Below are positions 9,335 through 61,066 of a stretch of DNA of 64,000 nt, piece by piece. Position numbers and translations under genes: made by a program. Origin of the DNA: Arctopsyche grandis (taxonomy: Eukaryota; Arthropoda; Insecta; Trichoptera; Hydropsychidae); assembly GCF_051622035.1 (NCBI RefSeq), contig NC_135362.1, positions 6,327,501-6,391,500 on the forward strand, given 5' to 3'. The notes under the pieces were generated by a model. The model was not told the DNA's origin. It searched no databases and was given only the letters and a program-made list of their open reading frames with translations. Numbering within the stretch: the stretch's first letter is position 1; each line of letters begins with the position of its first letter.

Positions 9335-9813
9335 CTAGTGTTGTCCCCGATGACATATCATCGCATGGGCATATTAAGTTATGAAATTAAAAATAAAAAT
9401 TTGTCAAATACCTTTTAAATATATTTAATTTATATTTAATTGTTTAATACGAAAAAAAAGGTAAAAACTATCTAACTTTCTATGTGTAAACAATATAAAA
9501 CACCAATAGAAAAATTAATTAATTAAATAAATGGCGGTTGATTCTCTGCCAAGCGGAAACATTAATAGCGATCAGTATATTTATTTATTTATTTAATATA
9601 CAAGGATACCAGTGTCTTTACAGGTCACCCCAATATGACACTGTGGCCAGACAATATATAGAAGCTTTTTTTCTTGTGTTATTGTATTCGTATATAAGTT
9701 TTGGCAGTAGTTTAGCTGTGACGTACATATGTACATATGTCGAATCGAAACGACTATTTAGTACGGCGAGCGTTATCTCAGACAGACAGACAGACAGACA
9801 GATGGAATAGCGA
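9335..9813 (-). mobile_element. Non-autonomous Helitron-like element
   Basis: On the minus strand the 3' end has a perfect six-base-pair stem (CGATGA / TCATCG), then CTAG (9338-9335), then T. The likely 5' end is TCGCTATTC, with TC at 9813-9812 and a flanking A on the minus strand. It matches the copy at 32125-34597, which has the same termini. Helitrons show a 5' TC, a hairpin near a CTRR 3' end and no target duplication. Inside lies a fragment of a SINE/LINE 3' tail (9590-9648). Confidence 0.7.
9590..9648 (-). repeat. SINE/LINE 3'-tail fragment with terminal stem-loop
   Basis: On the minus strand: a stem-loop with the loop block ATTGGGGTGACCTGTA and paired flanks around CAGTGTC / GACACTG, followed by an (ATTTA)n-type tail. 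It belongs to the conserved 3' stem-loop family described in the findings, and it lies inside a Helitron-like element. Confidence 0.65.
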
Positions 9814-10999
9814 TATTATATACATATATGATGATGATGTACACCTGTTGAAAAAAGTAAGGCTTAATACCTCTTACCCAACGATTTATCTTGAAACCTG
9901 GAAATAATTTTTCATTTGATTACTATTGTACATATTTAAAAAAAAATATCAATAACATAATACTTCAGTTTATCTATATATGTATGTATAAGTTGAGTAT
10001 GATAAATTAAGACTGGTTAGCAAGAATTGAAATTTATACATAATACTATGAGATTTTCTGGGAAACTTCACTTTTTTAATTTTCTTTTACAACTTTCATT
10101 CATCCGAACAACCCCAGGCAATTCAGCTAATGTATGCGTATTTATTTTTTTATCTTAAAATTGGGCTCAACATTTTTAATGAAAGGAAACGAGATAACCT
10201 TTTTCTGGAACAAAAAAGAAATTTATGTATTTAGGATAGAAGATTTTATATCTGCCCTCAAGTAATGATTTAACTTTATTTAACCTGCTAATAATAAAAT
10301 AAGTAAAACGAAATAATACCAATCCACCTTCAACCATGTCAAAAGAGAGGGGAGGGCAATAGTCGATTTATTTAAAAAATTTGCACTTTTGTACGAATTG
10401 CAAATATATAAAATTATTTTCCATATTACCGAGTAATATCTGGTATTGCATTTACTTACATATGTATTATATGTATGTGTGTATATGTTGGCGTTTTATC
10501 CAACTGGCCAACTGGCTTTTTGGGTCATTCATATTCGAATACAATTCAACTAATAGAATATATCTCTACAAGCGCAAATACGCTTTCAACAATGTGCGCC
10601 AGTTGTGACAGCTCTGATATTTTTACGAATGTTTTAAAATTCAATAATGCGTTAATATTTGCTAGGTATTATGAATAAAAGAAATGTGAATTTGTAGTAC
10701 GATAACTCTAAGAATGTGTCCAAAACAAAAGTGTGACTTTCCAACTCAATTTACTAGTCGAGTTACGTTTTCACGAAAGTCTAACCTCTCCATCTAACCT
10801 GGTACCAAACTATAATTGAACTGTATTTTCAGTTGTAATATATTTTGACCAGTTAGAATGTAATTCGCCATACGAAGTTGAAATAGTTCAAATATATTTC
10901 GACTGGAAGATACACTTCAACTGTAATACGAGTATATTATGTACAAAACTGTTCGACAGATGACGACTTTTTTTTTGGTTCACGAACACTTTTTTTTTG
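9814..10999. other. AT-rich intergenic DNA, no gene seen
   Basis: The open frames at 10381-10680 carry no recognised motif and have poor context. No terminal repeats were recognised. Confidence 0.5.
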
Positions 11000-11049
11000 G
11001 TTAGTGAACACGAATCTGGTAATAATAGTGTGGCCAGAAAACTATTCCA

Positions 11050-12012
11050 ATAAATATTTTTCAATAGAAAATACTCAATATAAAATAGTATTAACAATGG
11101 GAAAAAATCCCGAGTGAAAATACGTACTTTTAACTTTTGATTTGAACTGGACGACTCCTTAGAGAAATTTGAAAGCTGAAAAGTACTACAAATGAAAGAT
11201 AAAATACCCAACTATAGATTTCAATATTAATTTTGAACAGGAAATTGACAGATTTTGAGACGTCGACCGATCAACACGAAGTTATAGAAAAGTTGCCCGA
11301 TTTAAAAAACACATATTTATTTATTTATTTAATTTATTATTTTAAAATATAATGACCAGTGTGACCTGACAGGTTGCCCCAAAGCGTCACACCGGTCTTT
11401 TTTTTATTTTTTTTATTTTATTTTTTTTTATTTCATACCAGGAAGGCATTACAGGTAAACCCCAATGCGCCTTCCTGGCCAAATTACAAACAATACAGCA
11501 TTTTTTATTATATAAGTCGCTAAATTACGAGACACTGACTTAAACTCGACAATTAACGAGACATCTATGAATTGTACATACATTTTTATTGTAATATTTA
11601 CATTAATCATACTCAAATAGTGGTGACATAGTGGGTAGGAAGGATTTTTAGCCAATTTTTAATCGGGAATCGTTTCAACAATGAAATCAGAGAAAATTGG
11701 CAAACTCTGATAGGAAACGATCAACCAGGAGTCACAAATCCTGGTCTGACCAGCAGCATTACAGATATACTCAGAAAAATTATTTTCAATCGAGGTCAGC
11801 TCAAGGGATCGAACTCGGCGCCTCTCAGTGTTAAGCAGAAGCTTAACGACCGAGCCACGCTGCTGGCTTAACGTCACATATGTATATGTATCTCCGAATC
11901 TTGAGCCAATCAACATTTTTTATTACCAAATTCGTGTTTACTGGGCATAGATCTATAAGAAAAGTCATATCTTGTCTTGGAACCATCTGTCGTGTCAAAC
12001 AGTGTAATTAAT
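11050..12012 (+). repeat. Second copy of the unclassified repeat, interrupted
   Basis: Matches 1899-2310 over 11050-11311 and 11888-12006. The break at CACATAT holds a SINE, and the break after CAGTGT holds a foldback element. Sequence beyond the second insertion (ATATGTCAAT, about 12410) also matches the reference copy. Confidence 0.65.
11312..11887 (-). mobile_element. tRNA-derived SINE, minus strand, with target duplication
   Basis: The minus-strand 5' head (about 11876-11800) has a tRNA-like A box, GTGGCTCGGTCGTTAAGC, and a B box, GAGTTCGATCCC, the internal RNA polymerase III promoter. A central domain containing GATCGTTTCCTATCAGAG is shared with the SINEs at 15045, 19785 and 60100. The 3' end is a stem-loop (11480-11437) followed by an A/T-rich tail, and a second tail fragment with its own stem-loop (11397-11354) follows. 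The copy is bounded by CACATAT on both sides. Confidence 0.8.
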
Positions 12013-12396
12013 GGGTCTCCGTGACGAGACAGAATGTTAAATTACAGAAAACACAAATATCGGAAGGCAAAGATCGAAAATCGAAAGATCTTAAGTCGAC
12101 AGATCAAAAAAAAAATGGTGCATGGTAAACTCACTTAATTTGCGCGAGCAGGATACATCAGGAACAAGAAGAACAGGCTTTTCCTCCCGTATTAATGTGC
12201 GCGCGCAGAATACGGGAGGAAAAGCATGTTCCTCTTGTACCTGTTGTATCCTGCTCGCGCAAATTAAGTGAGTAAGTACCGTTTACCATGCACCATTTTT
12301 TTTTATCTTTCGACTTAAGATCTTTCGATTTTCGATCTTTGCCTTCCGATATTTGCGTTTTCTGTCGTTTAACATTCTGTCTCGTCACGTAGACCC
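12013..12396. mobile_element. Foldback element with arms of about 190 bp
   Basis: Two arms are near-perfect reverse complements: GGGTCTCCGTGACGAGACAG at the left, and its counterpart ending AGACCC at the right. They are separated by a loop of about 20 bp centred on TGCGCGCGCA (about 12200). The 7 bp AATTAAT flanks it on both sides (12006-12012 and 12397-12403). No coding capacity. The superfamily is not clear: the terminus GGGTCT and the duplication length do not match a class I am sure of. Confidence 0.8.
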
Positions 12397-12403
12397 AATT
12401 AAT

Positions 12404-13140: not shown

Positions 13141-14319
13141 TCAACAGATAAAGCTGATATTAATATGTATACCATGTTCAAGCTGATATTAACGCTGTCT
13201 TGGAGTTCAGTTCTAGTTTAGGCCTTGAACTTAATTTAAACAAATGTGCAATTATGAGCTATGGACGTGCACATTCACTCTATTGTCACGGATATTCCAT
13301 TAGATCCGTCTTGTTGAAGCGTGTGGAATCTATTGTCGATTTGGGTATCACTTTTGATCCTCAGCTCACCTTTCACAACCATATCAAAAAAGTCGCTGAC
13401 GTTTCCTTTCGTCGACTTGGATTTGTTTTGAGATATGCAAGATTATTCTCCAATCCTTTGTCTTCTCGCTTGCTTTTCAATTCGCTTGTGAGAAGTAAGC
13501 TAGAGTATAATGCGATTGTGTGGAATCCGCATGAAGCAAATTACTCTCTGATGATTGAGAAAGTGCAAAAAGCATTTCTTCGTTTCCTATATAGGAAAGA
13601 ATATGGGTATTACCCATATCTCTACCCCACTCCTTTCCTTTTGGGCATGCTTGGGTATAATTCCCTTGAACTTCGGAGAAACTTCTCATTAATTCGTTTC
13701 GTTCTCCTGCTCTTACGTGGTAATACGTCATGCCCGTTGTTGCTGGAGCAGTTGGGGCTTTATGTCCCTATTCACTATGTGCGTGGTAGACATCATCATT
13801 TGCTGGCTGTACCTCCTGCCCGCACAGTCCTTTTTCGAATGGCTCCTATTCCAAGAGCTATCCGACTTCTTAATGAAATCGTTGCTGCCGAGACTGAATG
13901 TGATATTTTCCACCTTAGTGAGCGTAAATTGTCGGAAATTACTCTAACCCATTTATCTGGTAGTCTGCGCTCATCATTGTTTTCATGATTGATTGTGATT
14001 TATGAGTGAAATTTTGATTAACTCTCTTCCATTTGGGCCTTACAGGGATGTTTTGTATTTGTAGTTGTTTCTTACATATTTATTGAAACTGGCTGTAGGT
14101 GCAAGGCATTCCTTATGCTATATTTTATTTGATATTTTTACTTTATCTGTTATTATAAATGCTATTTTTTATGTATGTATGGATGTATTTATGTTTATGT
14201 TAATTGTTATTTTGTTTTTTTTCTTTTTTGTGTTATATTTTTTGACCATTGTGGCGCTTTAGGAATTCCTGTTATGCCACAATGGTCTGTTTAAAATAAA
14301 TAAATAAATAAATAAAGTT
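13141..14319 (+). pseudogene. 3' fragment of a non-LTR retrotransposon (LINE)
   Basis: A 262-residue frame (13200-13988) is the C-terminal part of a non-LTR reverse transcriptase. It carries the thumb and connection motifs LGLELNLNKC, VDLGITFDPQLTFHNHI, NSLVRSKLEYNAIVWNPH and MIEKVQKAFLRFLY, then a tail with RGRHHHLL and MAPIPRAIRLLN. The catalytic palm is missing (5' truncation). The 3' UTR ends in a 12-base-pair stem-loop (14244-14287) and an (AAATA)n tail to 14319. A second copy is at 22155-23065. Probably jockey/I-group; the clade is not certain. Confidence 0.8.
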
Positions 14320-14603
14320 GAAAAAATAAAACTACGAAATTTTGACTAAATTGTTTCCTGGATGTTCTTTATGCTTTCTTAAATAAACATTATTATTTAT
14401 TGAGGATAACTTTGTAGATACAATAGTTCTTGTAAAGATAGTAAAATTGTATTTCTTAATATATTTTTCTAACAGGAAATAATACTTTTATTATTAACTT
14501 TTGAAGCTATTCTCTGGAAGTTTATTTTATTTCAATTTACAGATCGCTTTAAAGCGACGAGTTCACTAATACGGATACAATACAATAATACAAGCATTTT
14601 TAT

Positions 14604-14997
14604 AGGATGCGGTGCATCCGCTCTAAAATCGCCAGATTAACGGACGGCTGCTTTAAATGCAATTCTCGTCTTCTCGAATGATAGATTGCACATCAGATGA
14701 TTGGTAACCTTTCGATGTGCACAGATGCAATTATTAAAATGGTAATTATTAAAATTGAGTTGGATCTTTCAGGCGAGTTTAATAAGGCAAGATTCGATAA
14801 GTTCGGAATCTTGCCAGAAAGATCCAACTCAATTTTAATAATTACCATTTTAATAATTGCATCTGTGCACATCGAAAGGTTACTCGTCATCTGATGCGCA
14901 ATCTATCATTCGAGAAAACGAGAATTACGTTTAAAGCTGCCGTTCTGTTAATCTGTCGTTCGTTTGTCTGGTGATTTTAGAGCGGATGCACCAAACC
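14604..14997. mobile_element. Mutator-like MITE, long inverted arms, 9-bp target duplication
   Basis: The left arm (14604-14785) and right arm (14812-14997) are near-perfect reverse complements over about 185 bp, ending GGGTTTGGTGC-like. The 9 bp CATTTTTAT occurs on both sides (14595-14603 and 14998-15006). A 9 bp duplication with long terminal repeats is typical of the Mutator superfamily. It has no transposase; the similar open frames on both strands are a by-product of the palindrome. Confidence 0.75.
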
Positions 14998-15044
14998 CAT
15001 TTTTATACAATGCGAATTCATACAAACATCATCCACAGTGTGCC

Positions 15045-15237
15045 ATCTATCGAAAAGGAAATGCTAATTGACAGGAACCGTTTCAATGAAAATCAGAAAA
15101 ATTGGCACACTCTGAAAGGAAACAATCGACCTGGAGTCACAAACCAAGGTCTGGCCAACAGCTATTAGTGGAAATCGAACCGTGACCACTCCGCTCGAAA
15201 GCATAGTATGCTAACCACTAGTCCACGCTGCCGTTTA
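15045..15237 (-). mobile_element. tRNA-derived SINE fragment
   Basis: The minus-strand head has the A box GTGGACTAGTGGTTAGCA and the B box GGTTCGATTTCC, followed by the central block found in the other SINEs (reverse complement of GGAACCGTTTCAATGAAAA). The 3' stem-loop and tail are absent, so the copy is 3'-truncated or decayed. Confidence 0.75.

Positions 15238-15680: not shown

Positions 15681-15682
<2 letters not shown>

Positions 15683-15770
<88 letters not shown>
15683..15770. repeat. (AT)n microsatellite
   Basis: An uninterrupted AT run of about 88 bp. It produces alternating Ile-Tyr open frames that are not genes. Confidence 0.97.
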
Positions 15771-15773
<3 letters not shown>

Positions 15774-19784: not shown

Positions 19785-20320
19785 TTAAGCCAGCAGTTTG
19801 GCTTAGTGGTAGCGTATATATAAAGCACCACTGAGGTCAAAGGTTCGAGTCCTCGCCATCTGCTGGTTAGATTTGGGGGTTTTGTGACTCCAAATCGATC
19901 GTTTCTCTATCAGAGTTTGCCAATTTTATCTGATCATTGCTGAAACGGTTCCTGAAAATTGGTATTAGATCTATACCTGTTGTCACAAAATCTGCCTGTG
20001 TATAATTTGTAATAATTATACACAGTAATCTGAAATCTATAGATATCTCTATAGACATTTCTATAATTTCGTATTTATTATATGTATAAAAATTGTACAC
20101 AAAAAAAATCTAAAAAAATAATCCAGAGATGTCTCTATGATTATTATTTCTGATTAATTATTATATGCTATATATTCTGATTGTATATGTATTACTGTAT
20201 TTCTGATTTCTGATTGTTTATGTATTCTGTATTTCGTTAACGTACACCCGTCGCATTGGAGCGAATCTGTAATGACGAGTGTGTATTGATTTGTAACAAT
20301 AAAATAAAATAAAATAACAA
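19785..20320 (+). mobile_element. tRNA-derived SINE, plus strand
   Basis: The head has the A box TGGCTTAGTGGTAGCG and the B box GGTTCGAGTCC (19796-19850) at tRNA-like spacing. The SINE central block follows (GATCGTTTCTCTATCAGAG, GCTGAAACGGTTCC). The 3' stem-loop is at 20244-20284, with the conserved loop pieces GCATTGG and TCTGTAAT, followed by an (AAAATA)n tail. Between body and tail is a stretch rich in GATTTCTGATT-like repeats. Likely a complete SINE copy. Confidence 0.8.
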
Positions 20321-21887: not shown

Positions 21888-22154
21888 ATACATACGTGCA
21901 TATGTACATGTATAGAATAATATTACATCGTAATCATTACCTATATCATAAGACCAATATCACTAATCATTACATCATAAAAACCAAATCGAATAATTGA
22001 CATATGTAAGCGTCGAATCGAAGTGAAACCTATGTACTGAAAAATACTACTGAAAATAATAAAAATACATTTAAATCCCATTTCCAAATTTGGTGGTCCT
22101 AAATTTAAAGTTCTCGATAGCATAGAAGACAAACAAACATTCATTTATGAAATT

Positions 22155-23065
22155 ATGTGCGTGGTAGACATCATCATTTGATGGTTGTACCTCCTGCTCG
22201 TAAAGTTATTTTTCGTATGGCTCCCATTCCAAGAGCTATTCGACTTCTTAATAAAATCTTTGCTGCTGAGTCTGAATGTGATTTTTTCCACCTTAGTGAG
22301 CGTAAATTGTCGGATATTATTCTAACATATTTGTCTGGCAGTCTGCGCTCACTGTTTTCATGATTTTTTCAGTCTGTTTAGAATAATATAAAATAAAATA
22401 AAATAAATAAATGATTGATTGTGATTTATGAGTGGAATTTTGATTTACTTTCTTCCATTTGAGCCTCACAGAGATGTTTTGTATTTGCAGTTGGTTCTTA
22501 TTTATTGGAACTGGCTGTAGGTGCAAGACATTCCTTATGCTATATTTTACATATATTTGATATTTTTACGTTATCTGCTATTATTAATTGCTATTGTTTT
22601 TTATGATTATGTATAAATATATTTTTGTATGTGTATATACATATGTTTATATTTATTTTTCTTTCTCTTTTTTATTTTAAAAGACATTCTCTTCTTTGTT
22701 GTTTTTTAATAATTTGTAATTATTATTATTATCCGCTATTATTTATGATTATGTATAAATATATTTTTGTATGTGTATATACATATGTTTATATTTATTT
22801 TTCTTTCTCTTTTTTATTTTAAAAGACATTCTCTTCTTTGTTGTTTTTTAATAATTTGTAATTATTATTATTATCCGCTATTATATAGCTTATTATATTT
22901 ATGATTGTGTTAAATGTGTTGTTTGTGTATATGTATATATGTTTTATTTTTATCATGTTTAATTTCTTTTGTTAATATTTTGTTTCTTTTCTGTTATATT
23001 TTTGACCGTTGTGGCGCATTTGGAATTCCTGTAAAGCTACAATGGTCTAAACTTTAAATAAATAA
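22155..23065 (+). pseudogene. Second LINE 3' fragment with internal tandem duplication
   Basis: Matches 13780-14319: the same RGRHHHLM-like start, MAPIPRAIRLLN, the stop region and the 3' UTR. Differences: an insert of about 50 bp at 22364-22412 that looks like another element's extreme 3' tail (GTCTGTTTAGAATAA plus an A-rich tract), and a 142 bp tandem duplication starting at 22601 and 22743. It ends in the family stem-loop (23004-23047) and an AAATAAATA tail. Confidence 0.8.
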
Positions 23066-26354: not shown

Positions 26355-27290
26355 TAATAAAGCTATGGATGTCGATAAAAGTGGAATTTTGGGATACCCT
26401 GGGGAGAAAACCTGGAATCGGAAGATGACGTGTGACCAGTGTTCGCGAAGATCGTCGTATCAAGCACATAATGCTAGAAAATCCATTCAAAACAGCGGTA
26501 GAAATTCCAGCAGGGCTTCAAACATCAGATCATGTGACATTTTTAGAAAAAACATTGAGGAAGAAACGGCTTTTTGGCAGCCAAACCACCCTGCCAAAAA
26601 GTCGTTTCTTACGCTTAAAATGCGAAAAGATCATCTAAATTAGGCTAAGGACCATAGGCATTGGACTGTCGATGATAGGAAAAGGGTTGTAGTTTCTGAA
26701 AAATCGAAGTTCAATTTCTTTGGGCAGGATGGGATCTGCATGGAAAGTTGGCGAAAGATTCCGCACGGAATGCATTTCTCCGATCGTTGCGCATTCACCT
26801 CAATTAATGGTTTAAGGGTGTATGATCGCATATGGTTTAGGATTCCTGACCATTATTGAGAAAATAATTAATGCAGAAAAGTAAAAAAATGTGCTTTTAA
26901 ATTTTGTAATTCCAACGATCGAGAAAATAACGCAACATTCAAAAATCCGATTTATCAAGCGATTCTGCACCATGTCATCGCGCTCGAGCCGGAAGTACAA
27001 TTTCGATTTTTTTTTTGTCTAAATCTTTTACTAAATGATTAATAATATCCTTTATCACTTACAGATCACAACATTTAAGAATATCCTGGGTATCAAATCA
27101 TTAGAATGGCCGGGAGACAATCCAGATCCGAATCTATGGACTATTTTAAAGAGAAAATTGGCAAAACGACGTACATCAAATATCATAGAATTGCATAAAA
27201 ATATAACTGAAACTTGAGAGAATGATATTACGATGGAATATTTAAATTCACTGTACGAAATCAACGCATATTGGCGATTATTCAAAATCG
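26355..27290 (+). pseudogene. Decayed Tc1-like transposase
   Basis: Fragments in several frames line up with a Tc1 transposase in order. They are GRKPGIGR, then DRRIKHIMLENPFKTA (helix-turn-helix region, about 26450-26500), the HWTVDDRKRVVVSEKSKFN block (about 26660-26715; the first catalytic Asp of the usual SDES is not conserved), and the SLEWPGDNPDPNLW region (about 27100-27145; SPDLNPIE in intact elements). At least three frame changes plus stops. Terminal repeats were not identified. Clearly inactive. Confidence 0.75.
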
Positions 27291-28671: not shown

Positions 28672-31600
28672 TTATTCAATTCTATTCTGCTTCTCTAGTC
28701 GGGCGGTCAAAATAGGTTGACGCTGTCCATACAAAGAACCTTCAGGAATCTGAAAAACATTATCGTCCTTATATTCCGCATCGATTTCCCCTTCTAAATC
28801 ATCAACACTATGGAGTTGTTGCTCCTCTGCAATAATATAAAAAAACGTTATTGACAATACAGTCAGTGCGATTTTGAATCACAATCTTACAATTACAACC
28901 TTTTACAACTGCGTCATTATCCGGAGAAGACTCCTGACGATTCATAACTCTTTCCAACAATAGCCGTGTATATTTAATTATATCTTTTACGTTATAGCTA
29001 ACTATAGAATCGTCACTGTTGAGCGGTACAAATTTATCACGTTCCTTTTCACTTTTGGCAAATATTGTTCGCAATAGATACAAAGCATTTAGTATAGAAG
29101 TTTCTTCCCAAGCCTGTTTGAAACGGTATTGTAATTAATATACATAAATATATAGATAAACTGAATCATATATTGTATATATAATCACTTGATGGCAGTC
29201 ATGCAAAGCATCCGTCGACAATGCATTCTTAATAATATCTAAATTTTCAATCTTCGGCTCGACCAATTCCAAAAGAGTAAATATCAAATGAATTCCACAA
29301 TTTATTTCACAGCCAAACCTAAAAATAAATTATATAGTAAATATTTATTGAAAAATCAACAGACAACACATGTAGAAATAAAAATAAAAATAAAGAATAA
29401 ATGTAACAAAAAAACATCCGAGCCCAATTATAGATTTTTACAAATTACATAAAGACAAACAAATGAAAAAGAAATGAATAAAAACTATAACATGACTAAA
29501 TAAAACAAAAATAAAGTGATATAATATTGGATAAAGATTATATAACAGAAATAGAAATGAATCAATCAATCAAAACTCTCCCGATGGCTTTGATAAATTT
29601 TAGTTAAACTTTTTCAATACAATTAATATGGGATATACAAAAAGGTGACCAAATAATTGAGGCAAATTCAAGGTGAGACCTTACAATGGAAAAATCAAGT
29701 AATTTAAGTACATGAGGATCATTAAAGGGTTTAGTTGAGCAGAGTAAGAATCCAAGAGATTTATATGCTTTATTAGTAATGAAGAAAATATGTTCAAAGT
29801 AATCGAGTTTATTATTAAGTATTACACCAAAATCCTTAATAGAAGAGGATGCATTTAGAATTGAATGGTTTAAATGGTAATGATAATGATAAAATATAAC
29901 ATATTTATAGTTATATTTCCAAGAGATTTATATGCTTTGTTAGTAATGAAGAAAATATGTTCAAAGTAATCGAGTTTATTATTAAGTATTACACCAAAAT
30001 CCTTAATAGAAGAGGATGCATTTAGAATTGAATGGTTTAAATGGTAATGATAATGATAAAATATAACATATTTATAGTTATATTTTGTTAAAAGATAAAA
30101 GTTTATGTATTTTAAAGTTTACCTAAATACATCAAGCTTCAATTTCAAAATATCTAAACTTGCTTTGTTAATCTTCGATACAGTATCTTCTAATAGAAGA
30201 GCAAGACCTTCACAACTTGTCGGGGGTCTTTCTCTATATTTTATCATTAGTCGCTTTTGAATCAGAATAAATTGTGATGATAGGACATCTAATGATTTCT
30301 AAAATATAAAATAATCAATTATAAATATTTTACATACCAAAATAGTAAGGCAATATAATATTTGGAATAAATAGCAGTGCGTTGGAATGATAGTGCCCGT
30401 TTTAACATACTTCTTACAACCTCAACATTGACGAGCTCTTGCCGTGTGACAGTATGTTGGTCGATACTACTCAAAAACGATTGCAAAATATCTTGGGATA
30501 TTCCTCCATAGAGAACAACTTTCAGCATTGCATTCTCTCCGTCTCTCAAATGCGGCCGTTTATTAAAATACATCAGCAGGCGGTGTAAGAATTCTTTAAT
30601 AACACCCTCCATTATTGATATATTATCACATTGAATCCGGTAACGCTGTGAAGATTTCGCTGATATTATAGTAACAGGAGAATCGTCAGAGTACGGACTA
30701 GAGAAAGCAACAACACCGGTCGATAGTCCTAGTTCGGTGAATGTTTCAGATTTGAAATCTAAAAGTGTAATTAATATATAAAATACCTTCAAAAATATAA
30801 AATAGTAGCGAAGTTAAGTTGAAATATTCACCGTTGAAAAGTTCTAATAGATCGACGGTTGATTTGTTTGCCGCTAACGTTACTTTGTACTTTGAATCCT
30901 TCTTCGGTGGATTCAAACGGTATACTAACTGAAACGGCAACTGCTCGTCCTTTTTCAAGATGCGAATTTGACCCAAAGAGTTTGTAAATAAAACTACAAC
31001 GCCAATATTGAGAGTTCCGATTGGCACCTTACTACGAATACATACTTCGGTTTCAACCGATATATCATCGGTTATGTCAGTAATCAATTGATTTGAATCT
31101 GAACACACAACCGGATCTTGGGTAACAAAAGTCACTTGCATCAATTCGATATTTGATCTGTCGAGAGGCTTTATTTTAACTTCGACCTTACATTTGTAGA
31201 AATCATGGGAAATAGTGTCATCTTCGGATCTAGGAAAGCTATCATCGACGATCAGATTTTTATCGATGAATATCGTGAATGGTAATTCTCTTTCAGATGC
31301 AGCTTTACTAAGGTTAATTTCTATGCATAAAAAATAAAAAATATTTATTAAAATAAAATTCAAATGTTTCAAATAAGTACATAACATATTTAATATGTAA
31401 ATACGTACCGCTTATATCATTTTGGCTGCTTATTATGACTTGAAGTTTTTCCAACTCCACCTGTGCTTCGTCAAAATTGACTTCATTACTAGGCAACGGA
31501 GGTGCGGTGAAGAGTTCCGGTTCTGTTCCCAAATAGCAACATTTAACTTCGCCGTAATCGGTGAGCATAACTAAAGAGCCGGGTAAGTTTGTAAAGAAGC

Positions 31601-34600
31601 CTCGACCGATCCAAACAGGCATAAAAGTAAGTTGACAAGACCACAAGAGAGTGGCTTGTTCATATATTAATAGTGTTGATGTCTCCGATATAACCATCAC
31701 CATAAATCGAGCATTATTCTCTGGAATGATAAATTCAGAATGTATGAATATGTATACGTTTGCGCAGAATAAAAGTTAAATATCGTGATTCTTACCATAA
31801 TACCAACCAATTAAATAAGCGTGAGAACAAATAGGTTCAAAGTCAAACTTCTTCATAAATTTAAGTAAACCATTGTCGTTTAAGCAATAAAGGCATCGTT
31901 CTCCCAATAATACAAACGCACAAATATTGTTGCTAGTCTGCAAAATTATTATAATTATGTATACAAAAAAACGTTACCATGTAAAGCTAAAGTAATGCTG
32001 ATTGTCAAAAAAATTTCAGGTATAAATGAAACATTGAGATATGATAAAGATTCACAATGTTCACTTATAAAATGTAAAAAAAATCTTTCGACATAACAGC
32101 TGGTTTATATATGTACATATGTAACTAGCGTTGTGCCCGATGGAATATCATCGCATGGATGTTGGCATATTAAGTTATTAAATAAAAATAAAATAAAAGA
32201 AATGTTTCAGTCCTGTGTTCGACCCGCACGCGATCGAATTTTGTAAATTAATGTTTATATTTAATTGTTTAATATGAAAAAAAAGGTAAAAATTACCTAC
32301 AGACCCATGACAGGTTGTTCTTACCACTAGCGTAATTTGCGAAACTTGTGACAAATTTGACAAACATGTGGGAAACACGTGTTTATTTTAACACTGGTAG
32401 ATACATTGAATAGCTGCCCACATGTGGTGGTGACAAAAAACCGAAACTTTTGAAATTGGGGTGAAAGAAACAAAGAATCAGTTCACGGTCAGTTTTCGCC
32501 CTGTTAACACGCTGCGTAAATTAACAATTATTGACTTAAAAATAGACTTAAGATTTAATTATTTTTAAATATAAGTTGTAAATTAATATTATTGTGTATA
32601 ATTTATTGTGTTTTTACGTTCGCTTTAATATATTTTTTAATTTTAATTTAGAAACTTTTTTTTTGAAATGGCTACAAAAAAAACCATTTCAGAAGATGTG
32701 AAAGTGGCTATTGCAACGCTTATTAGTGAAAAGACATATAGTTACAGACAAATTGCAAAAAAATTTCATGTTTCTCACCCTACGGTAGCCCATATTGCAC
32801 AATTGGTGCAATCGGGGGTTTCTCCAACTGCTACATTATACCACAAATGTGGGGATAAACGAAAAACCACACCGCGAACGGATCGAAAAATCATCACCAT
32901 AGCTTTGGAGAACCGTAAGGTGCCTAATAAAGGCATTCAAGCTATTCTGAAAGAAGAGGGAATCGATATTTCTACAAGAACGTTGCAACGCAGACTTCGC
33001 GAAGTTAATGTCAAGAGCCGTGAAAAAGCCAAAATTGACACCAACGATGAAAAAAAAGCTTCTGCTATGGGCTCAGGAACATCAGCAATGGACTGTTGAT
33101 GATTGGAAAAAGGTATTGTTTAAATATTAATATTTAACTAAAAAATACTTGATAACCTCCTATGTACTAATTTTTCATTCATTTTAGGTTTGTTTCTCTG
33201 ACGAATCAATTCTATGGACAATGACAGATGTTATCAAAGACATCAGAAGACGACCTTCCGAGAAGCTGTGCGATGAATGCACCATTCAAACAACAAAACA
33301 TAGTGCATCTGTGGTGGTGTGGTCGGTTATTAGCGGAAAAGGGGCTGGACCCATATATTTTGTCGAGAGTACATTGCGACAGGATCAATATAATTTTTTT
33401 TTATCACAAGTATTTTTGCCGTATTTTCAATCAGAGGGGATGAGTGCACATAATTATATTTTTATGCGAGATGGAGCCCCGTGTCATACGGCCAAAACAA
33501 TTAAAAACTACCTGACCACAAAAAATATTCCAATTTTGTTATGGCCAGGTAATTCACCGGATTTAAATCCGATTGAAAATTGTTAGGCGGTATTGAAAAA
33601 AATTGTTTATAACAGCCCTAATACTACGTTGGATAATTTAAAAGAAAAAATAATAGATACATGAAAAAATAATTCACAAATAAAAAAAACAATAGAGTCA
33701 TGCAAAGAGAGTATGCCGCGTAGAATTCGGGCTGTTATAAAAAATAGGGGAGGGACAACTAAATATTAAGTTAATTACAGTTTTTTTTTGTAAATATTAT
33801 TGATGAATATATTATGCGTGTATAATAAAAAGTTTGGATTCATTTCCTGTTCTAAAATTTAACAAAATCGACAAAAAACGAGCTTTACGCTAGTGGTAAG
33901 AACAACCTGTCATGGGTTTGTATGTACATATAAACAATATAAAACACCAATAGAAAAAATTAATTAATTAATTAAATAAATTTTCAAAAGATGGCGCTAA
34001 ATGCCCAGAGACTTAGCGCCATATATTAACCGAGAGAAAATATTGGTAGCAAACAGTATATACATATATAGGCAAAGAAATGTTATATTAATAGAAGTGG
34101 CTTTAGGCGTCATATTGTTGTCAAGTGACGATTGTCCACAGACAATCCTAAATAATTTTAGCATCAGTCGTATTTGACGCTTGGTGCTCGACGTATGTGT
34201 ATGTCCGATAAAGACTTCTCTTTTTGTTTATATTACTCGCAAGATGGGCAAGCATCGGTAAAAATTGCACAATGCATTCAAAAACACACAATAAACAACA
34301 TAGGATACATTTTTATAAGTAAATTGATCCGATTGTATTCCGTGCGTTGTAGCGTATTTATAGAGACGTACCGCGTAATATTAACAACAATTATTTATTC
34401 GTAAGGGCCCTTCTATTACTATTACATTTCTCTGTATATACATACATGAGTATATAGAAGTTTTTTTCTTTCCTTATTATATTCGTACGTTTTATTCTTC
34501 AGTATTTTAACGGTGACTTACATATGTATGTGGAATCGAAACAACTATTATAGTACGGCGAGCGTTATCTTACACAGACACACACACAGAATAGCGATAT

Positions 34601-36122
34601 TATATATGTATATGATATGATACGTACATATGTTACGATACGATATCATATATGATATTGAAATCCAAACGAGTATATATGTACAAACAAAATTTCAATG
34701 TATGATCCTGATCCAGGCAGAAGACAGAAGGGGCAATTTCCACGGGTATCACAATTTTAGGGTCTCACAATTTTAGGGGACTCGCAATTTTACAGCCCTC
34801 AATTATAGATTTTGGAATAATATCTCATTTTGTGTGGTGCTTGAGCACGAAAAGCTTTTGTCAAATAATTTTTCTTTTTAATTTTAATAAGCTTTTTATT
34901 TTTATAATATATATATATTTTTTTAAGTTTTTCTTCCCCTGGTTTTGAATATTAAAAAATAGGGGGGGGGGGCTCAAAAATATCGGTTGCCCTGGGCCTC
35001 GCATTTTTCTGAAAGACTATTTGTATCTATGTGTAAAATAACCTGAATTTTTTGCACACTAATAATATTTTCTCCAACATTATATTCCCAATCTGCAACT
35101 GGCTTTTTTACTGCAATTGATTTTCCGTCATTAGCATCTGATACTTGTGATAAATTGTGATAACTGAAAATAAATTAATAAAAATGTATTAAAATGAATT
35201 ATTTTAAATTATATATGTTGAAAAGTACATACATAAATGATTAATAAGAATACGTGAAACTACATGTAATATATACATTTACATACCTGAAAGCTTCTAT
35301 AACCCAATTTGAATTGCATGTTATAAAAGCATCGGCACAATGGCTGTAAGACATTTCCCCCGGCAGCAAAAAGTTGGGCAAAAAGCAACTAAAAGTTGCA
35401 ACATCTTGTTCGAAAAACATAAGCAAACCGTCCAAAGATTGTACGCATATGAAATCTCTTTCTTTCACATTGCCAAAAGGACCGACGACGAAGCAATAAG
35501 CAGCCCTCGGTAATTTGTGACCATACTGTTCCAAAAGTATATTCTGATTACCTATAACAAATAAGTTAAATACTATGAATATAAGAACACTACGATATTA
35601 TTTCACAAAGTGCATTAAAATCAAACCAATAAACAATAAACTGTATATAAAAATAAAAGAAAATAGCAATTGAAGGTGATTTAGTACAGTATTCATATTA
35701 CCGTATTCGGTGTGACCTTCTTTACTCGATAGCATATATACGGAAATGCTACGAGGATGTAACACAGCTATGTGTTCTATACTAGAACCACTGCAGACGA
35801 AAATCGTTTTATATATGTATATCTTGTATGACTTTCAGTACTGTACGATTTTAAATATATGTACTTACGGCATTAGTTTTCCTGTGTCGATTTGCAAGAT
35901 CGGTTTATCGGTCATGAACTCGAGGATTACATCCGTGGGCTGGTAGGCACCCTGTGGCCTGAAAATTTGTATGAGTCCATTTGGGGCTCCGAATATGACG
36001 ATGTCACCGGAGCCTTCGGGTCCGATTTGTGATACTTTTAGAGAACCGTTAAATAAATCTACTGCTGCCTCGTCGAGAGCAGTTCCACTGCTCCACCAAT
36101 CCCTGGCTTTGAATAAAGACAT
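28672..36122 (-). CDS. BBS9: BBS9 / PTHB1, BBSome subunit (12 exons)
   Basis: BBS9 is a core subunit of the BBSome, the coat-like complex that carries membrane cargo in cilia. Exons by splice signals and frame: 36122-35869, 35790-35702, 35551-35287, 35163-35043, 31937-31796, 31720-31409, 31320-30832, 30758-30334, 30298-30123, 29318-29189, 29113-28900, 28826-28672. They join in frame to 923 residues; human PTHB1 is about 890. The start MSLFKARDWWS matches the family's start. Other conserved blocks are GERCLYCLNDNG and VMLTDYGEVKCCYLGTEPEL (N-terminal beta-propeller) and ISAKSSQRYRIQ (C-terminal half). Donors of exons 8 (GTAAAA) and 11 (GTTGTA) were chosen because the stronger neighbours give stops. 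The intron after exon 4 (3.1 kb) holds a Helitron with a Tc1; the intron after exon 9 holds a reverse-transcriptase fossil. Insects keep BBSome genes mainly for ciliated sensory neurons. Confidence 0.93.
29560..30085 (-). pseudogene. Reverse-transcriptase fossil in a BBS9 intron, partly duplicated
   Basis: The minus strand (about 29840-29560) encodes KDFGVILNNKLDYFEHI, NKAYKSLGFLL and IVRSHLEFASIIWSPF, the post-palm region of a jockey-like reverse transcriptase, ending at an in-frame stop. A segment of about 165 bp (from about 29752) is tandemly repeated from about 29921 to 30085. It lies in the intron between BBS9 exons 9 and 10, in the same orientation as the gene. Confidence 0.75.
32300..33920 (+). 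mobile_element. Tc1/mariner element, 1.6 kb, TA-flanked
   Basis: Inverted ends start CAGACCCATGACAGGTTG at the left and CAAACCCATGACAGGTTG at the right, and continue GTTCTTACCACTAGCGTAA. TA borders both ends (32298-32299 and 33921-33922). The length of 1,621 bp is normal for Tc1. The transposase runs from 32668 to 33769. The target is a Helitron-like element inside a BBS9 intron. Confidence 0.92.
32668..33769 (+). pseudogene. Tc1 transposase, DD34E core kept, frame broken
   Basis: The N-terminal DNA-binding region has two helix-turn-helix-like parts: ISEDVKVAIATLISEKTYSY with RQIAKKFHVSHPTVAHI, and TDRKIITIALENRKVPNKGI with TRTLQRRLREVNVKS. The catalytic triad is visible: CFSDES (about 33197), RDGAPCH (about 33478) and SPDLNPIEN (about 33570), with 34 residues between the second Asp and the Glu. 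Damage: one frameshift near 33025, a 75 bp segment with GT...AG ends (33113-33187) splitting the block before CFSDES, a TAG in place of the usual Trp right after PIENC, and a TGA in place of a likely Trp near 33661. The 75 bp segment may be a real intron. The protein is probably inactive. Confidence 0.85.
34700..35040. other. Intronic DNA with G-rich patch, no gene seen
   Basis: Within the large BBS9 intron. A run of ten G at about 34965, followed by GCCCTGGGCCTCGC, recalls the ends of some hAT elements, but no matching partner end was found. Confidence 0.3.
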
Positions 36123-55004: not shown

Positions 55005-55406
55005 ATAAAAAAAATTATATTTTTCTTGCTAGATAAAAGTATATATGTATGTATGTATATGCAAAAAAAATCTGTTGTTAAATCATTAATCAAAAAATAA
55101 ACAATGATGATTTGTGGATTGCAATTTTTTTCCTTGTAGTATTTTTTCTCTTTTTGTATATGAAAATCAAATACCAAATACGAATTTTCAATAAATATTG
55201 TATTGATCTCGTAAAGTGAAAGATTTTTTCGATTCATTTTTCTTTCCTTACCTAATGTATCAGAATTTCCCATATCTTGTTCTTGTCGTGATCGTGTACA
55301 GACGTTGATTACGTGTGTGGCGATTTGGGCAACGAAATTGTAACAATTAAAAAAATAAAAATAAATTTGTAATATATAATTATGTGTACGTTCTAAGTGT
55401 ATAATA

Positions 55407-56345
55407 ATGGCATCAGAACGCATAAGTGAAGTAATAACGATTGAAAAAAAAATTATGGACATTTTGACCACAAAAACTAACAGTATATCAAATGACAATA
55501 AGACATTTTTAATTACATCAGTAAAAAAATTAGTTGAATATATTTGTGAAAATGAAAATAATGATAAGGAACAATTTTTGGATGTAATATGTGAGTTAAG
55601 AAGTGAATTTAAAAATTTGAAAAACAATATACAAAAAGACATAAATATATTAAAAAGCAACAGTGAATTAAACATTTTAAAAAGGGGTGTAAATAAGAAT
55701 AAAAATAATTTAAGTTATGCAAATGCACTTAACAATAAAGACGTAACAATAATAGTTCCAAAAAAAATTCAAGAAACGGACAAAACAAAAGAAGAGTGCA
55801 AAAATGTAATAAAACCCAAGGAACTAAAAATAGGAATACAAGGGATTAAAAAAATCGGTAAAGGGGGTATCGTTGTAACGTGTATCAGTGCACAGGATAG
55901 TATTAAATTAATAAAAGAAGTAGAAAATAAATTAGGGGAGAATTACAATGTTAAAAGAGGGGAATTAAAAAATCCCAAAATTAAAATTGTAGATATGTCG
56001 GAGGAACTTACAAGTGAACAGTTGGCTGAGTGTTTGATGAATCAAAATCAAGAAGTTATAAATGATGGTGAATTGAAGGTGTTAAAAATATGGAAAAGTA
56101 GAAAAAATAATAAATATAATGCGATAGTGGAAGTAGATTGCAATACATTTAAAAGATTAATTGAAGATGGAAAAGTAAATATAAATTGGGATAGATGTAG
56201 GGTTTTTGAAGAAATTAATATTCTAAGATGTCTAAATTGTTACGGATTTAATCACAAAGCGGTGGATTGTAGAAACAAGGTGACATGTGCGAAATGTGGA
56301 GAAGAAGGGCACAAAAGCGAGGGATGTAACAATAAAATGTATTAA
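55407..56345 (+). pseudogene. LINE ORF1, Gag-like protein with CCHC knuckles, frame broken at its end
   Basis: The 312-residue product binds element RNA in related retrotransposons. The N-terminal half is Lys/Asn/Glu-rich and probably helical. A central region (LKIGIQGIKKIGKGGIVVTC, KNPKIKIVDM) recalls the RRM-like fold of ORF1 proteins. Two zinc knuckles follow: CLNCYGFNHKAVDC and CAKCGEEGHKSEGC. The frame stops at NNKMY, but a third knuckle-like stretch (CINCFKSNN to TKCSVYKRN) continues in another frame to 56475, so a frameshift at about 56335 has removed it. The start codon is ATAATGG. Confidence 0.85.
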
Positions 56346-56475
56346 TTGCTTTAAGAGTAATAATAAATTAAAATTAAATTTGAACACGAATCACGGACCG
56401 TTGGACACTAAGTGCAGTGTATATAAAAGAAATATAGAATTAATGAGAAATAGAATTAAGTATAATAATATATAG

Positions 56476-57758
56476 CAACCACCAAAAGGTATCGGTATAA
56501 ATGTACAAAGTTTTTTTGCTCACAAGGATGAGGTTTGGAGTTTAATTGTAAATCAAAAACCATTATTTATAGGTTTAAGTGAAACGCATGTAACTAGTGA
56601 TTTTGAAGATTTTGAGCTGAATATAGATGGATATTGTGTTTTGAGATGTGACTCTAATTCTAGACATACGGGTGGGGTATTATTGTATTTAAGGGATGAT
56701 TTAAGTTACGGTAATGTAATAGTTAATAAGGTTGATGGTGAGTTTTGGACAATTGGTGTGGATCTGCTTGTGAATGGAGTTACTGTGTTTTTGCTAGTAA
56801 TTTACCGCTCTCCGAATGGTAGAAGTGGAAGATTTCTTAAATTTTTAGAAGAATTGAGTGAAAGAAGTATAGATGTGAGTAAAAATATAATTATGTTTGG
56901 GGACTGGAATTTTAATTGGTTACAGACAGAAGAATTTTATGTAAAAAAGTTGAGAAATTGGGTAAATGAATTGGGTTTTAAACAAAAAGTGACGGAAGCA
57001 ACGAGAGTGAATAATTTATCAAGCTCTCTCATTGATTTGGTTATAACAAATATAATGGATTTGCGGTGTGAGGTGAAAGATGTACCGAAAATAGGAGACC
57101 ATTCTATTGTCAATATGTTTTTGGGACAGCGGTTTAGTAACGGAGGACTTAAAAATATGCAGGTGACTGAAAGAGAAAACATTGATTATCAATTGATGAA
57201 TGAATTGTTAAAGGAGTGTGTATGGGGAAAGGATGGTGATAGTGTGAATGAAATGTGGGAGATAATGTATCGTAATATAACATATTCTAAAAGTAAATGC
57301 GTAAAAACCACAAGAATCATGCATAAGCATAAGCTGAAACCTTGGTTTACCAAGGAAGTAAAGGAAAGCTTAGTTGATAAGAATGTTAGTTATAAAAGAT
57401 ATAAAATTATTAAGGCTATGGATGGAATCCAATTAGAAAAGGCTTGGTTAGAGTATAAAAGAAAGAGGAATAAATGTGTGAATGTTTTACGTAATGCGAA
57501 GAGGGATTGGCATGAAAGAAATATTGATGGTGCAAAAAAAGATCCCACAAAAATGTGGCGAATAATTAAAACTTTGATTTCCGGGGGAAAAAATGTTTCT
57601 TTGAATGAATTAGAAGTCGAGGGGGTAGTATATAATGATAAAGAGGATATGGTTGAAAGATTGAATGAGTTTTACATCAATAGTGTGAATGATATAGTTA
57701 ATTCAATACAAACAAGGCATAATAGTGTGAATGATGATATTAATTTGGGTTTAAATTA
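56476..57758 (+). pseudogene. LINE ORF2, apurinic-type endonuclease part
   Basis: The frame opens directly after a TAG at 56473 and has no early ATG. It reads GIGINVQSFFAHKDEVW, LFIGLSETHV (catalytic Glu), GGVLLYLRDD, VIYRSPNG, MFGDWNFNW (Asp/Asn pair), LIDLVITN and IGDHSIVNM (Asp-His), the ordered motifs of an exonuclease-endonuclease-phosphatase fold that nicks target DNA. A linker follows with WRIIKTLISGGKN. The frame ends NLGLN-stop at 57758, and the reverse transcriptase continues in a different frame, so a frameshift splits ORF2. Confidence 0.85.
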
Positions 57759-59265
57759 GTGGAAATGGGGGGATTAAATGGTGTATTGAAGGGCATGAAA
57801 TCAGTTTCTAGTATGGATGGATTGACTCTAGATATTTTAATCAACACTTGGGACATGGTTGGACCTCAGTTACTGAAATTAATAAATGAATCGTTAGAAG
57901 TGGGATCCGTCCCGGATGCATGGAAGGTGTCTACTATTGTACCGGTACCAAAGGTTACTGGCACACATAAAGCCAGTGAAATGAGGCCCATCAATATGTT
58001 ACCAATTGTTGAGAAGATGCTGGAGGAAATCGTTATGATTCAATTGAAAGAGTTCATTAGTATAAATGATTGTTTGGTTGTGGAACAGTCTGGATTTAGA
58101 GTGAAACATTCAACAGAAACCGCTATCCAATTGGTGGTTTCTGATTGGATGGAGACGATGGATGAATCTAGCATGGTTGTTGGAGCAGTTTTTCTAGATT
58201 TTAAGCGAGCGTTCGAGACAGTAGATAGGAATATTTTATTACAAAAATTATATAAGTTAGGAATAAATGGTATAGTATTAAAGTGGCTTCAATCATACTT
58301 AAATAATAGAAGGCAAATAGTAAAAATTGATAAGGTGTTATCCTCTGAATTTGTAACACCTCATGGAGTGCCGCAAGGGTCCAAATTGGGACCCTTATTA
58401 TTTATATTATATATAAACGATATTGCTAAGGTAATTAAGATGTGTAAAATACATTTGTCTGCAGATGATACATTGATATATATAATTGGAAAGAATGTTG
58501 ATGTAATGTCTGAGATTTTAAATATAGAATTAAATTATGTGAATGACTGGTTGTGTGAAAATAAATTAAAGTTGAATGTGAATAAAACAAAAATGATGTG
58601 GTTGAATGGTAAAAATAAAAATATATTGAATGAAATTAGAATTGATGATAAGTTAATTGAAAAAGTTGAAAATATAAAATACTTAGGTGTATACATAGAT
58701 TCAGGACTAAATTTTAAAATGCACGCTGACTATATAATAAAAAAAATGGCTAGAAAAGTTGGTGTATTATGTAGATTAAGAAATATTTTAAGTAAAAAAA
58801 GTAAAATTTTAGTGTTTAATTCAATTGTCTTGCCACATGTGGTTTATTGTGCCACTGTGCTTAATTTGTTTAGTGGCCAACATTTAGAAAAAATGCAAAA
58901 AATACAGAATAAAGCTATGAGAGCTATTTTGAATGTGAGTAGATTTAAGAGTATTGGAAGTATGTTAGATGAATTAGGATGGATGAGTATTAGAATTAGT
59001 CTAAATATTAGTACATTGTCTTTTGTTTATAAGTTAGATCATAAGTTATTACCTAAGTATTTTGATTATTATATAATAAGGAATAGAGATAAACAGAGAC
59101 AAACTAGTTGTAAGTAGAGTAAGAAAGAATACGACGGCTGGGGGTGTTTTTCACAGGGGTGTGCTCATGTATAATGCCCTCCCTGAGTGCGTCAGGTCTG
59201 CTAAAAACATGGATGCATTCCTGCGAGGTGCGAAGAGACACCTCTGTGAGGGACAGTACATATAA
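57759..59265 (+). pseudogene. LINE ORF2, reverse transcriptase part
   Basis: The 452-residue frame to 59117 holds the reverse-transcriptase motifs in order: VPDAWKVSTIVPVPK, RPINMLPIVEKMLE, EQSGFRVKHSTETAI, VFLDFKRAFETVD (first catalytic Asp), PHGVPQGSKLGPLLFILYIN and HLSADDTLIYI (catalytic Asp pair), then NKTKMMWLN, YLGVYIDSGL and MQKIQNKAMRAIL. The residue before ADD is Ser instead of the usual Tyr/Phe. After the stop at 59117 the C-terminus continues in another frame (RGVLMYNALPECVRSAKN, then FLRGAKRHLCEGQ) to 59265, a third frameshift. Non-functional as it stands. Confidence 0.88.
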
Positions 59266-59579
59266 GTTATTTATAAATTTTAGAGTTAAGTATAATAATT
59301 AAGATGTATTTTTTAATTAGCTTGATAGCTAAAATATATATAAATAAATAAATAAATATCCTTCTCAAAAAAATATAACAAAAATAAAGTTAAATTTAAA
59401 ACTGATTTTGATTCAGGTATAAATTCCTTTCCACAATCAACCAGTGGAAATGTCAACGAATACAACAGTAATAAAAGTCATAGGAACTATAATTAAATGA
59501 AAATTTAGATATTTGACCATACATACTCGTATATGTCTCTATGGATATAATTGATATATATTTACTTTGTATGATTTTT

Positions 59580-60245
59580 TTTTTTATACCAGGAAGGCCT
59601 AACAGGTAACCTCAGTGCGTGTTCCCGGCCAAAAACATTGTACATTTGATACAAGTATTATTACACAAAGTAAATACATATCAATTAACATCCACGAGAC
59701 ATACATATAATATATGGCCAAATTTGTAAATTCACAGCATTTCTTTTAAATAATTCAGTAAATACATATCAATTAACATCCACAAATACATTTATGGTCA
59801 AATGTGTAAATTTGCAGCATTTTATACAATTCAGCGAAATTCGAGATTGCTGGAAACTTTGCGAGATTTGCGAGAAAATGAGAAAAGTTGCCAATTTGAG
59901 ACATCTATGGTCAAATTTATAAATTCAAAACAATTCAGTAAATACATATCAATTAACATCCATAGACATTTATGGTCAAATTTATAAATTTAAAACAATT
60001 CAGTAAATACATATCAATTAACATCCACAGACATTTATGGTCAGATTCAGCGAAATTCGAGACTTTTGCGAGAAATTGGGTAAGGTTGCCAATTTGTTGG
60101 AACCGTTTCAATGAAAATCAGACAAATTGGCAAACTCTGATAGGAAACGATCGACCTGGAGTCACAAATCCAAACCAGAATAAACCAGCGGAATTTGAAC
60201 CCGTGACCACTTTGTTCAAAGCATTATATGCTTATATAAATACTA
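59580..60245 (-). mobile_element. tRNA-derived SINE, minus strand, with internal minisatellite
   Basis: The head (60245-60180) has an A-box-like TAGACTAGTATTTATA and the B box GGGTTCAAATTCC. The shared central block follows at 60105-60160. The 3' stem-loop with ACCTGTTAGGCC is at 59630-59587, followed by a poly-T/A tail. Between them (59690-60050) the sequence AAATACATATCAATTAACAT plus TTATGGTCAAATTTATAAA is repeated about four times at intervals of about 65 bp or more. Confidence 0.75.
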
Positions 60246-60284
60246 GTCTATTCTGCTGTATAATAATACGTGTATCAAATGTAC

Positions 60285-61066
60285 AATGTTCTTGGCCAGG
60301 GAGGCGCATTGGGGCTACCTGTAAGTAGGGATCCCAAATATTCGTCGAATTCAACTATTCGAATATCGAATAGTGAATCAAGAGCTATTCGAAAATTAAA
60401 AAAAAGGTAATTACATATGTGCTAAGCATCAATTACATTATATTTGTATATGTAATATATTAAAATTAATAAAACATAATTATAAAACAATTAAAAAAAC
60501 ACAAAACTAAAATACACACACACATAAAATATAAGATAGTTTAGTAAAATTGAGAAAATTGCAATTAAAAATAAATTTACAAAATATAATATAAAGAATC
60601 TTAATTTAATTTCAGAAAATGATGTTTTCTTTTTTAATTATGATTTCTTGTAAAAATGCATATTTCGCGGGTGACTTCTTAAAGATTAGTATTATTATTC
60701 TGATATTATCTAAAATTTCGTAGAGATTATTATCGATCGAAAAGTGATTTGATTGAAAAGTGAAACATTTCTGTATTTAATGAATAAAAAACCGTTTCTT
60801 CACATGTAGGCATTTCATCTTCCGGTAAATCGTCATTTTCATCAAAATTATCCCCATTACATATTTCATTTTCTTCATTCATGTTGATTTTGGGGTTTTT
60901 TTTTTTAAACATATACATATATGTACGAATAATATTCGAATAGTTGACGAAATATTCGAATATCGAATGGCTGAAAAATCTGACGAATAATTCGAATACT
61001 CAAATATTCGATTGGGATCCGTACCTGTAAGGCCTTTCTGGTATAAGTAAAAAATAAATAAATAAA
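60285..61066 (+). mobile_element. SINE 3' tail, plus strand, split by a hAT insertion
   Basis: GGCCAGGGAGGCGCATTGGG then CTACCTGTAAG (60294-60325) resumes after the insertion as GCCTTTCTGGTATAAG and an (AAATA)n tail (61032-61066). Rejoined at one copy of the 8 bp duplication, it gives the family stem-loop. It lies head-to-head with the SINE at 59580-60245. Confidence 0.75.
60326..61023. mobile_element. Non-autonomous hAT element, 8-bp duplication CCTGTAAG
   Basis: Ends are TAGGGATCCCAA at the left and the reverse complement of TACGGATCCCAA at the right, with subterminal TATTCGAATATCGAATAG motifs in both arms. CCTGTAAG is exactly duplicated (60318-60325 and 61024-61031). An 8 bp duplication with such ends is diagnostic of hAT. 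The 698 bp interior has only a 62-residue acidic frame (60730-60918, minus) without transposase motifs. Confidence 0.88.

Follow-up and report, generated by a model that had tools for sequence, protein, structure and literature searches.

A 3' hairpin common to LINEs and tRNA-headed SINEs of Arctopsyche grandis, with a conserved loop and a stem that changes in pairs between families

Analysis of a 64,000-nucleotide stretch of the genome of the trichopteran Arctopsyche grandis (the window, positions 6327501-6391500 of contig NC_135362.1), together with searches of the genome (475.7 Mb in 189 contigs), shows one design of hairpin at the 3' ends of both long interspersed nuclear elements (LINEs) and short interspersed nuclear elements (SINEs) headed by a transfer RNA (tRNA)-like sequence. 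The hairpin has a consistent structure and placement, it terminates two LINE and two SINE tail families, one of these LINEs has been active recently, and the stem has changed between families in ways that preserve its pairing. We consider it likely that this hairpin serves related LINEs of the stringent type as a 3' recognition tail and that it has been taken over by SINEs.

Hairpin design and the elements that end in it

An initial annotation of the window had proposed that eight 3' ends carry one hairpin design, and all eight places do hold such a hairpin, with 86/96 stem pairs formed over the eight tails. The design consists of an outer stem of 10-12 bp, then mostly GC(A/T)TT, an inner helix, CTGTNA and the second arm; the inner helix has four pairs (URGR with YCUG) and an apex of ~4 nt, and is separated from the outer stem by an internal loop. 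The loop is conserved as the annotation described, but its wording of the conserved pieces was too strict, CCTGT being TCTGT at 20241 and ATGCC occurring only in 14244 and 11436, and its strands require correction, four of the SINE tails being on the minus strand. A covariance model built from 15 hairpins, including six from the window and leaving out the hairpin at 9606, recovered seven window hairpins in full, six of which are rows of the model, with E from 1.2e-15 to 3.7e-6, and scored the left part of a split hairpin at E=0.0019. The hairpins and their elements are as follows.

14244..14287, plus strand: LINE1 hairpin; 12/12 pairs, then TGTTTAA(AATA)n; covariance model E=3.3e-12, the row itself being in the model
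13176..14243, plus strand: 5'-truncated LINE1 copy; residues 719-988 of the second open reading frame (ORF2) plus the 3' untranslated region (UTR); 99.6% by tblastn across 270 aa (13176-13985)
23004..23047, plus strand: hairpin of an older LINE1 copy; 12/12 pairs, G-U pairs among them
22154..23003, plus strand: the older LINE1 copy; matches the 13776-14310 part twice, at ~77% identity
11436..11480, minus strand: A-type hairpin; 11/12 pairs; terminates a tRNA-headed core SINE; E=1.2e-15, row in the model
About 11481-11872, minus strand: tRNA-headed core SINE body with A-type tail; A and B boxes by eye
11354..11397, minus strand: B-type hairpin; 12/12 pairs; directly behind the A-type tail, with an AAAT-rich stretch next
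9605..9648, minus strand: C-type hairpin; 9/12 pairs ungapped; E=3.7e-6, outside the model; AAAT-rich stretch next
20241..20285, plus strand: D-type hairpin; 10/12 pairs
19789..20240, plus strand: tRNA-headed core SINE body with D-type tail; A and B boxes by eye; core 81-84% identical to other copies
59587..59630, minus strand: A-type hairpin with one arm decayed; 9/12 pairs; SINE at about 59631-60250 (minus)
60294..60323, plus strand: A-type hairpin, left part; belongs to a 5'-truncated SINE copy
60324..61021, plus strand: 698-bp insert splitting this A-type hairpin; flanked by TACCTGTA as an 8-bp direct repeat (60316-60323, 61022-61029)
61022..61043, plus strand: A-type hairpin, right part; includes the duplicated 8 bp; the joined flanks fold as one stem

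With the insert removed, the pieces at 60294 and 61032 form a single hairpin with an 11-bp stem (11/12 pairs) plus the inner helix. The insert has imperfect inverted ends (AGTAGGGATCCCAA / CGGATCCCAA) and, given the length of its 8-bp repeats, is presumably hAT-like. The C-type stem at 9605 is weaker, the covariance model reading a 2-nt bulge in it, and the repeat upstream of this hairpin recurs at 34451-34634. At 11354-11480 an A-stem and then a B-stem tail stand in tandem and terminate one SINE; because ATATGTG is found both in front of the head and behind the second tail, the two tails may stem from one insertion.

Several comparisons place these hairpins beyond chance. The combined pattern GGCGCNTTNGGN{3,7}CCTGTNANGCC has 2 matches in the window versus 0 in 100 shuffles. 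When arms are re-paired among the five stem types, the true arrangement alone of 120 gives 54 pairs; over all eight rows, 86 pairs are reached in 12 of 40,320 arrangements, because members of the same type are interchangeable. A scan for the stem alone is unspecific, as unrelated hairpins at 26563 and 49154 match the real ones in score, and the evidence is therefore the stem plus the loop. The loop-only pattern GCATTGGGGN{2,5}ACCTGTAA has 2266 matches in the genome and its reversed control 0. Rfam at the gathering threshold returned 0 matches, and three scans of viral contigs and one of genome contigs, made for relatives outside this genome, gave none. Two pattern matches, L001 and L002, look by eye like coding DNA of phages or bacteria and were dropped as chance.

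LINE1, the family of the 14244 hairpin, is young. A 460-bp query from this copy gave 41 listed matches, its own included, of which 40 are 99-100% identical, indicating recent activity; copy counts for LINE1 are lower bounds, 40 having been scored of 1502 first-look candidates. Twenty of the 41 listed copies were fetched, each with 6 kb upstream, and all 20 terminate in an identical hairpin followed by TGTTTAA and (AATA)n, while their 5' ends vary. A common 3' end with variable 5' truncation is the pattern predicted by target-primed reverse transcription. In the longest copies, L015 and L025, the alignment extends over ~4.44 kb, both open frames are begun and the same hairpin is present, so that the loops described in the initial annotation do stand on long, putatively full-length LINE copies. 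The first open frame has 340 codons in these two copies; ORF2 is open across 988 codons in L012 and is interrupted in L015 and L025. The L012 ORF2 matches Pfam RVT_1 above the cut-off (E=9.9e-27) and Exo_endo_phos below it (E=1.8e-4, 21.8 bits against a cut-off of 24.5). Endonuclease and reverse transcriptase thus lie in one LINE1 ORF, as in LINEs of the stringent type, and the L1 and R2 proteins are the best solved relatives of ORF2 by sequence. The 3' UTR of the older copy contains a tandem duplication of ~120 bp at 22600-22880 (by eye). At L016 (about 5580-6430 as oriented) a young LINE1 copy sits within a SINE-D tail; this locus was considered as a LINE-SINE chimera and rejected as one, since the SINE-D tail resumes past the LINE, from which we conclude that LINE1 inserted into the tail.

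The SINEs at 11436, 20241 and 59587 and a fourth copy near 15074 have in common a core of ~76-97 bp at 81-88% identity, preceded by a tRNA-like head in those that retain one. A and B boxes were also read by eye in several fetched SINE copies; ARAGORN found no tRNA in the window. TTAA stands directly before the head of the SINEs at 11436 and 20241 and just before that of the 15074 copy, possibly reflecting an insertion-site preference. In the flanks of the 20 LINE1 loci, 8/8 displayed hairpins terminate core SINEs, five with the A stem and three with the D stem; these eight were picked by loop and stem, the core is partial in L013 and some heads are incomplete. A ninth flank hairpin, L011, has an insert inside its loop. 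Among 20 arbitrary 4-kb stretches (80 kb) taken at round-number positions, the covariance model gives 8 hairpins at E<0.01, ~one per 10 kb: four core SINEs (L037 with the A stem; L045, L046 and L048 with the D stem), two copies of a second LINE (LINE-E), an old LINE1-type tail (L034) and a B-type hairpin (L040). Scaling from 80 kb, with a large error, would put the genome-wide number at about tens of thousands. From ~100 listed places among the 2266 loop-pattern matches, 20 loci on one contig were fetched, chosen for loop variety. The A stem is present in all of these. In 17 the SINE-A body motif lies immediately upstream; the remaining three fall below the cut-off. Within SINE-A, a subfamily (L052, L058, L059) is 97-99% alike and hence young, and some enzyme must therefore have moved SINE-A recently.

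LINE-E is represented at L041 by a C-terminal region that shares 39% identity with LINE1 across 147 residues and at L049 by the same C-terminal peptide (by eye) plus a 29-residue match. The hairpin lies behind the 3' UTR in 2/2 copies, with the loop GCGTTAGAGCTCTCTGTAAT or a variant and a stem other than that of LINE1, GGCCACAGTGAC or -GAG standing against GTCAC(T/C)GTGGCT. Stem change has therefore occurred between LINE families and not just among SINEs. A C-type hairpin at L032 (E = 0.11) was not counted as a LINE end, as the LINE adjoining it has its own tail. This other LINE, on the minus strand, has a different terminal inverted repeat, its 3' end reading CTTGGGCCTATCGGCTTTGCCGCCTCCCCCAAG with an AAATA-rich tail behind it.

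Paired change in the stem

Change in the two arms was examined in an alignment of 21 hand-chosen hairpins, from some of which the structure itself had been read; it excludes the hairpins at 9606, L045 and L011, the A-type one at L016, and L032 and L043, both of them weak. Pairing is present in 88.4% of the 335 cells. The value is 66.0% (standard deviation 1.6) after shuffling of the 3' letters and 33.5-49.1% with the partners slid, and both sides have changed in 75 cells versus 25.9 under shuffling. The initial annotation had taken paired changes on both arms as a sign of selection on structure, and between families the arms do change together. On a FastTree tree built from the same 46-47 columns, with Fitch parsimony and with substitutions redistributed along the tree as the null, there are 8-12 pair-preserving double changes versus a null mean of 0.8 (maximum 5 of 3000), and 296/335 cells are canonical versus a null mean of 167 and maximum of 246. 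A version with 15 rows gives 4-9 double changes versus 0.96, with 28/3000 nulls at four or more, and 211/238 canonical cells versus a null maximum of 177.

Relative to LINE1, both sides of the stem differ at 4/12 pairs in SINE-A and at 10/12 in SINE-D. G-U pairs occur at many positions, e.g., 2-45, 3-44, 4-43, 5-42, 7-40, 8-39 and 10-37. In the inner helix, 20-27 is the only pair with both sides changed; 12 of the 21 rows have G-C there and 8 have A-U, the A-U rows being SINE-D and LINE-E.

Within a single family the arms do not change together. In 20 SINE-A copies compared at 11 pairs, 198 cells are unchanged, 13 have changed on one side and still pair, 9 are broken and 0 are compensated. Independent variation of the arms, which the annotation had named as a refutation, is thus seen within SINE-A, where 22/220 cells have changed and where it is to be expected of dead copies, but not between families. 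The lack of compensated change indicates that copies decay freely after insertion and that it is the source lineages that account for the matched changes; the constraint on the stem thus acts on the source elements.

Candidate partners and what the enzyme may read

If the hairpin is a recognition tail, a LINE protein would bind it in the RNA, and target-primed reverse transcription would start within the A-rich repeats that follow. The tRNA-headed SINEs would have acquired copies of the tail and would use such a LINE enzyme in trans. The loop sequence and the pairing would be kept, and the stem sequence would be free to change provided that both arms change, so that the enzyme may read the shape of the stem plus the loop.

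Several points weigh against this interpretation. We infer binding by a LINE protein and mobilisation of the SINEs in trans from sequence evidence only. The rows of the 21-hairpin alignment were chosen by hand and include those used to read the structure, and two measures on it fall within the shuffles, namely pairs with both-side change (111/500) and further pair types (283/500). The covariation test proposed in the initial annotation, run as a home-made, R-scape-like, tree-based G test (FastTree and Fitch parsimony as above) on 15 sequences, yielded no significant column pair: the best structural pair has E=24.7 over 946 pairs, or 0.42 over the 16 structural pairs alone. This test ignores complementarity, and we attribute its outcome to there being only ~five independent lineages. 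In the DNA read, with its small sampling of LINEs, no LINE ends in an A or D stem. Outside the hairpin there is no SINE-LINE link except in A+T-rich tails. Upstream, SINE-A shows no similarity to either LINE, shuffles being equal or better in 1154 and 787 of 2000 for LINE-E and 1479/2000 for LINE1. Downstream, 19 and 138 of 2000 shuffles are as good for LINE-E and 16/2000 for LINE1, over A+T-rich repeats; SINE-D compared with the LINEs gives nothing upstream or downstream. A likeness of SINE-A to LINE-E beyond the hairpin was accordingly dropped, the upstream part being no better than shuffles and the downstream part equally good with LINE1. Finally, in the eel LINE UnaL2, changes of stem sequence strongly lowered mobility (PMC4176376), which speaks against a wholly free stem.

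The source of the different SINE stems can be explained in more than one way. Each SINE tail may be a copy taken from a separate LINE subfamily, such as an A-LINE or a D-LINE, the stems having diverged in the LINEs and been inherited by the SINEs. We give this an even chance: the two LINE families at hand already differ in stem, and the B-type L040 has a T-rich upstream stretch resembling a LINE 3' UTR, without coding sequence, while A- or D-stem LINEs did not turn up and the small, one-contig sample of loop matches returned the A stem in 20/20 and a SINE-A body in 17/20.

It is less likely, perhaps by half, that the young LINE1 alone drives all of the SINEs, reading the loop plus the stem shape, with the SINE stems having drifted from its own. 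LINE1 is the sole LINE shown here to be young, near-identical copies having been found for it alone in a small sampling of other LINEs, and the SINE-A subfamily described above is likewise young. SINE tails are usually close copies of the tail of one partner LINE, which counts against this explanation, as do LINE-E, a related LINE with another stem, the both-sided stem differences from LINE1 at 4 (A) and 10 (D) of 12 pairs, and the lack of upstream similarity between SINEs and LINE1. The tolerance of zebrafish L2 LINEs to stem swaps (PMC4176376) is in its favor. The proposal of the initial annotation that the LINE family of the window drives these SINEs is thus not upheld: LINE-E has a different stem, the DNA read contains no LINE ending in an A or D stem, and the flanks assign no partner.

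A bolder version of the recognition-tail reading, which we regard as doubtful, is that stem shape plus loop form a key. LINE lineages would change the stem and SINEs would follow or keep an older one, a single enzyme would copy at least four stems, and the recurring A-U/G-C swap at the closing pair of the inner helix would act as a further, hidden component of this key.

Two further explanations appear very improbable. Matched arm changes could be mutational, arising by template switching in a near-palindrome rather than by selection, as the difference of entire stem blocks between families and the small number of events would allow, but G-U pairs at many positions are what stepwise change predicts, the 20 SINE-A copies have 9 broken pairs and none doubly changed, and the loop is conserved too. 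Equally remote is a role in RNA stability or 3'-end formation instead of recognition by reverse transcriptase: a strong stem near the 3' end could serve it, but the hairpin is shared by LINE and tRNA-headed SINE RNAs, presumably made by RNA polymerase II and RNA polymerase III, respectively, and conservation covers the loop and not the stem alone.

Related systems and other features of the window

Hairpins of this kind are known from plants. In monocots, LINEs of the L1 clade and SINEs have in common a 3' end of ~50 nt with a hairpin in which the stem varies through compensatory changes and the loop and flank are conserved (Ohshima 2013, PMC3747384). The phenomenon is the same and its kind is therefore not new; what differs is the animal host, the loop sequence and the (AATA)n tail. 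Experiments on the zebrafish L2-clade elements ZfL2-1 and ZfL2-2 showed that deletion of the 3' hairpin abolishes mobility and that replacement of the loop strongly reduces it, whereas the stem can be replaced (at ~half the rate in one case) as long as it is not disrupted (Hayashi 2014, PMC4176376). These results lend support, from another clade, to the recognition steps proposed above. The hairpin described here resembles theirs in its position, although it belongs to other elements, has a two-tier form of ~44 nt and is known from sequence. UnaL2 is likewise a stringent LINE with a 3' hairpin, a tail common with a SINE and a short repeat tail, but its repeat is TGTAA rather than (AATA)n and its stem sequence mattered (PMC4176376, PMC3747384). 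By description rather than sequence, the SINEs are also like HaSE1 and HaSE2 of Helicoverpa, insect SINE families that share a tRNA-related head and a conserved central domain (PMC3272025). In the text of a lepidopteran SINE paper the words "hairpin" and "stem-loop" have 0 occurrences. A word search of open-licence papers did not turn up this particular hairpin.

Our analysis extends the compensating LINE/SINE hairpins published for monocots to an animal in which two or more LINE families carry them and the stem occurs in several types. With its young LINE and its many SINE tails, this one genome provides a natural set of stems and loops bearing on what a LINE enzyme reads in RNA.

The window also contains a different LINE at 55380-59350, with endonuclease and reverse transcriptase and a first frame that is zinc-knuckle-like by eye; it is 28% identical to LINE1 over 433 positions and ends in TTAGCTTGATAGCTAA plus an AAAT repeat. 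Two long inverted repeats read by eye at 12016-12396 and 14580-14940 look like foldback elements or miniature inverted-repeat transposable elements, and positions 30746-31411 on the minus strand hold part of a PTHB1/BBS9-like gene.

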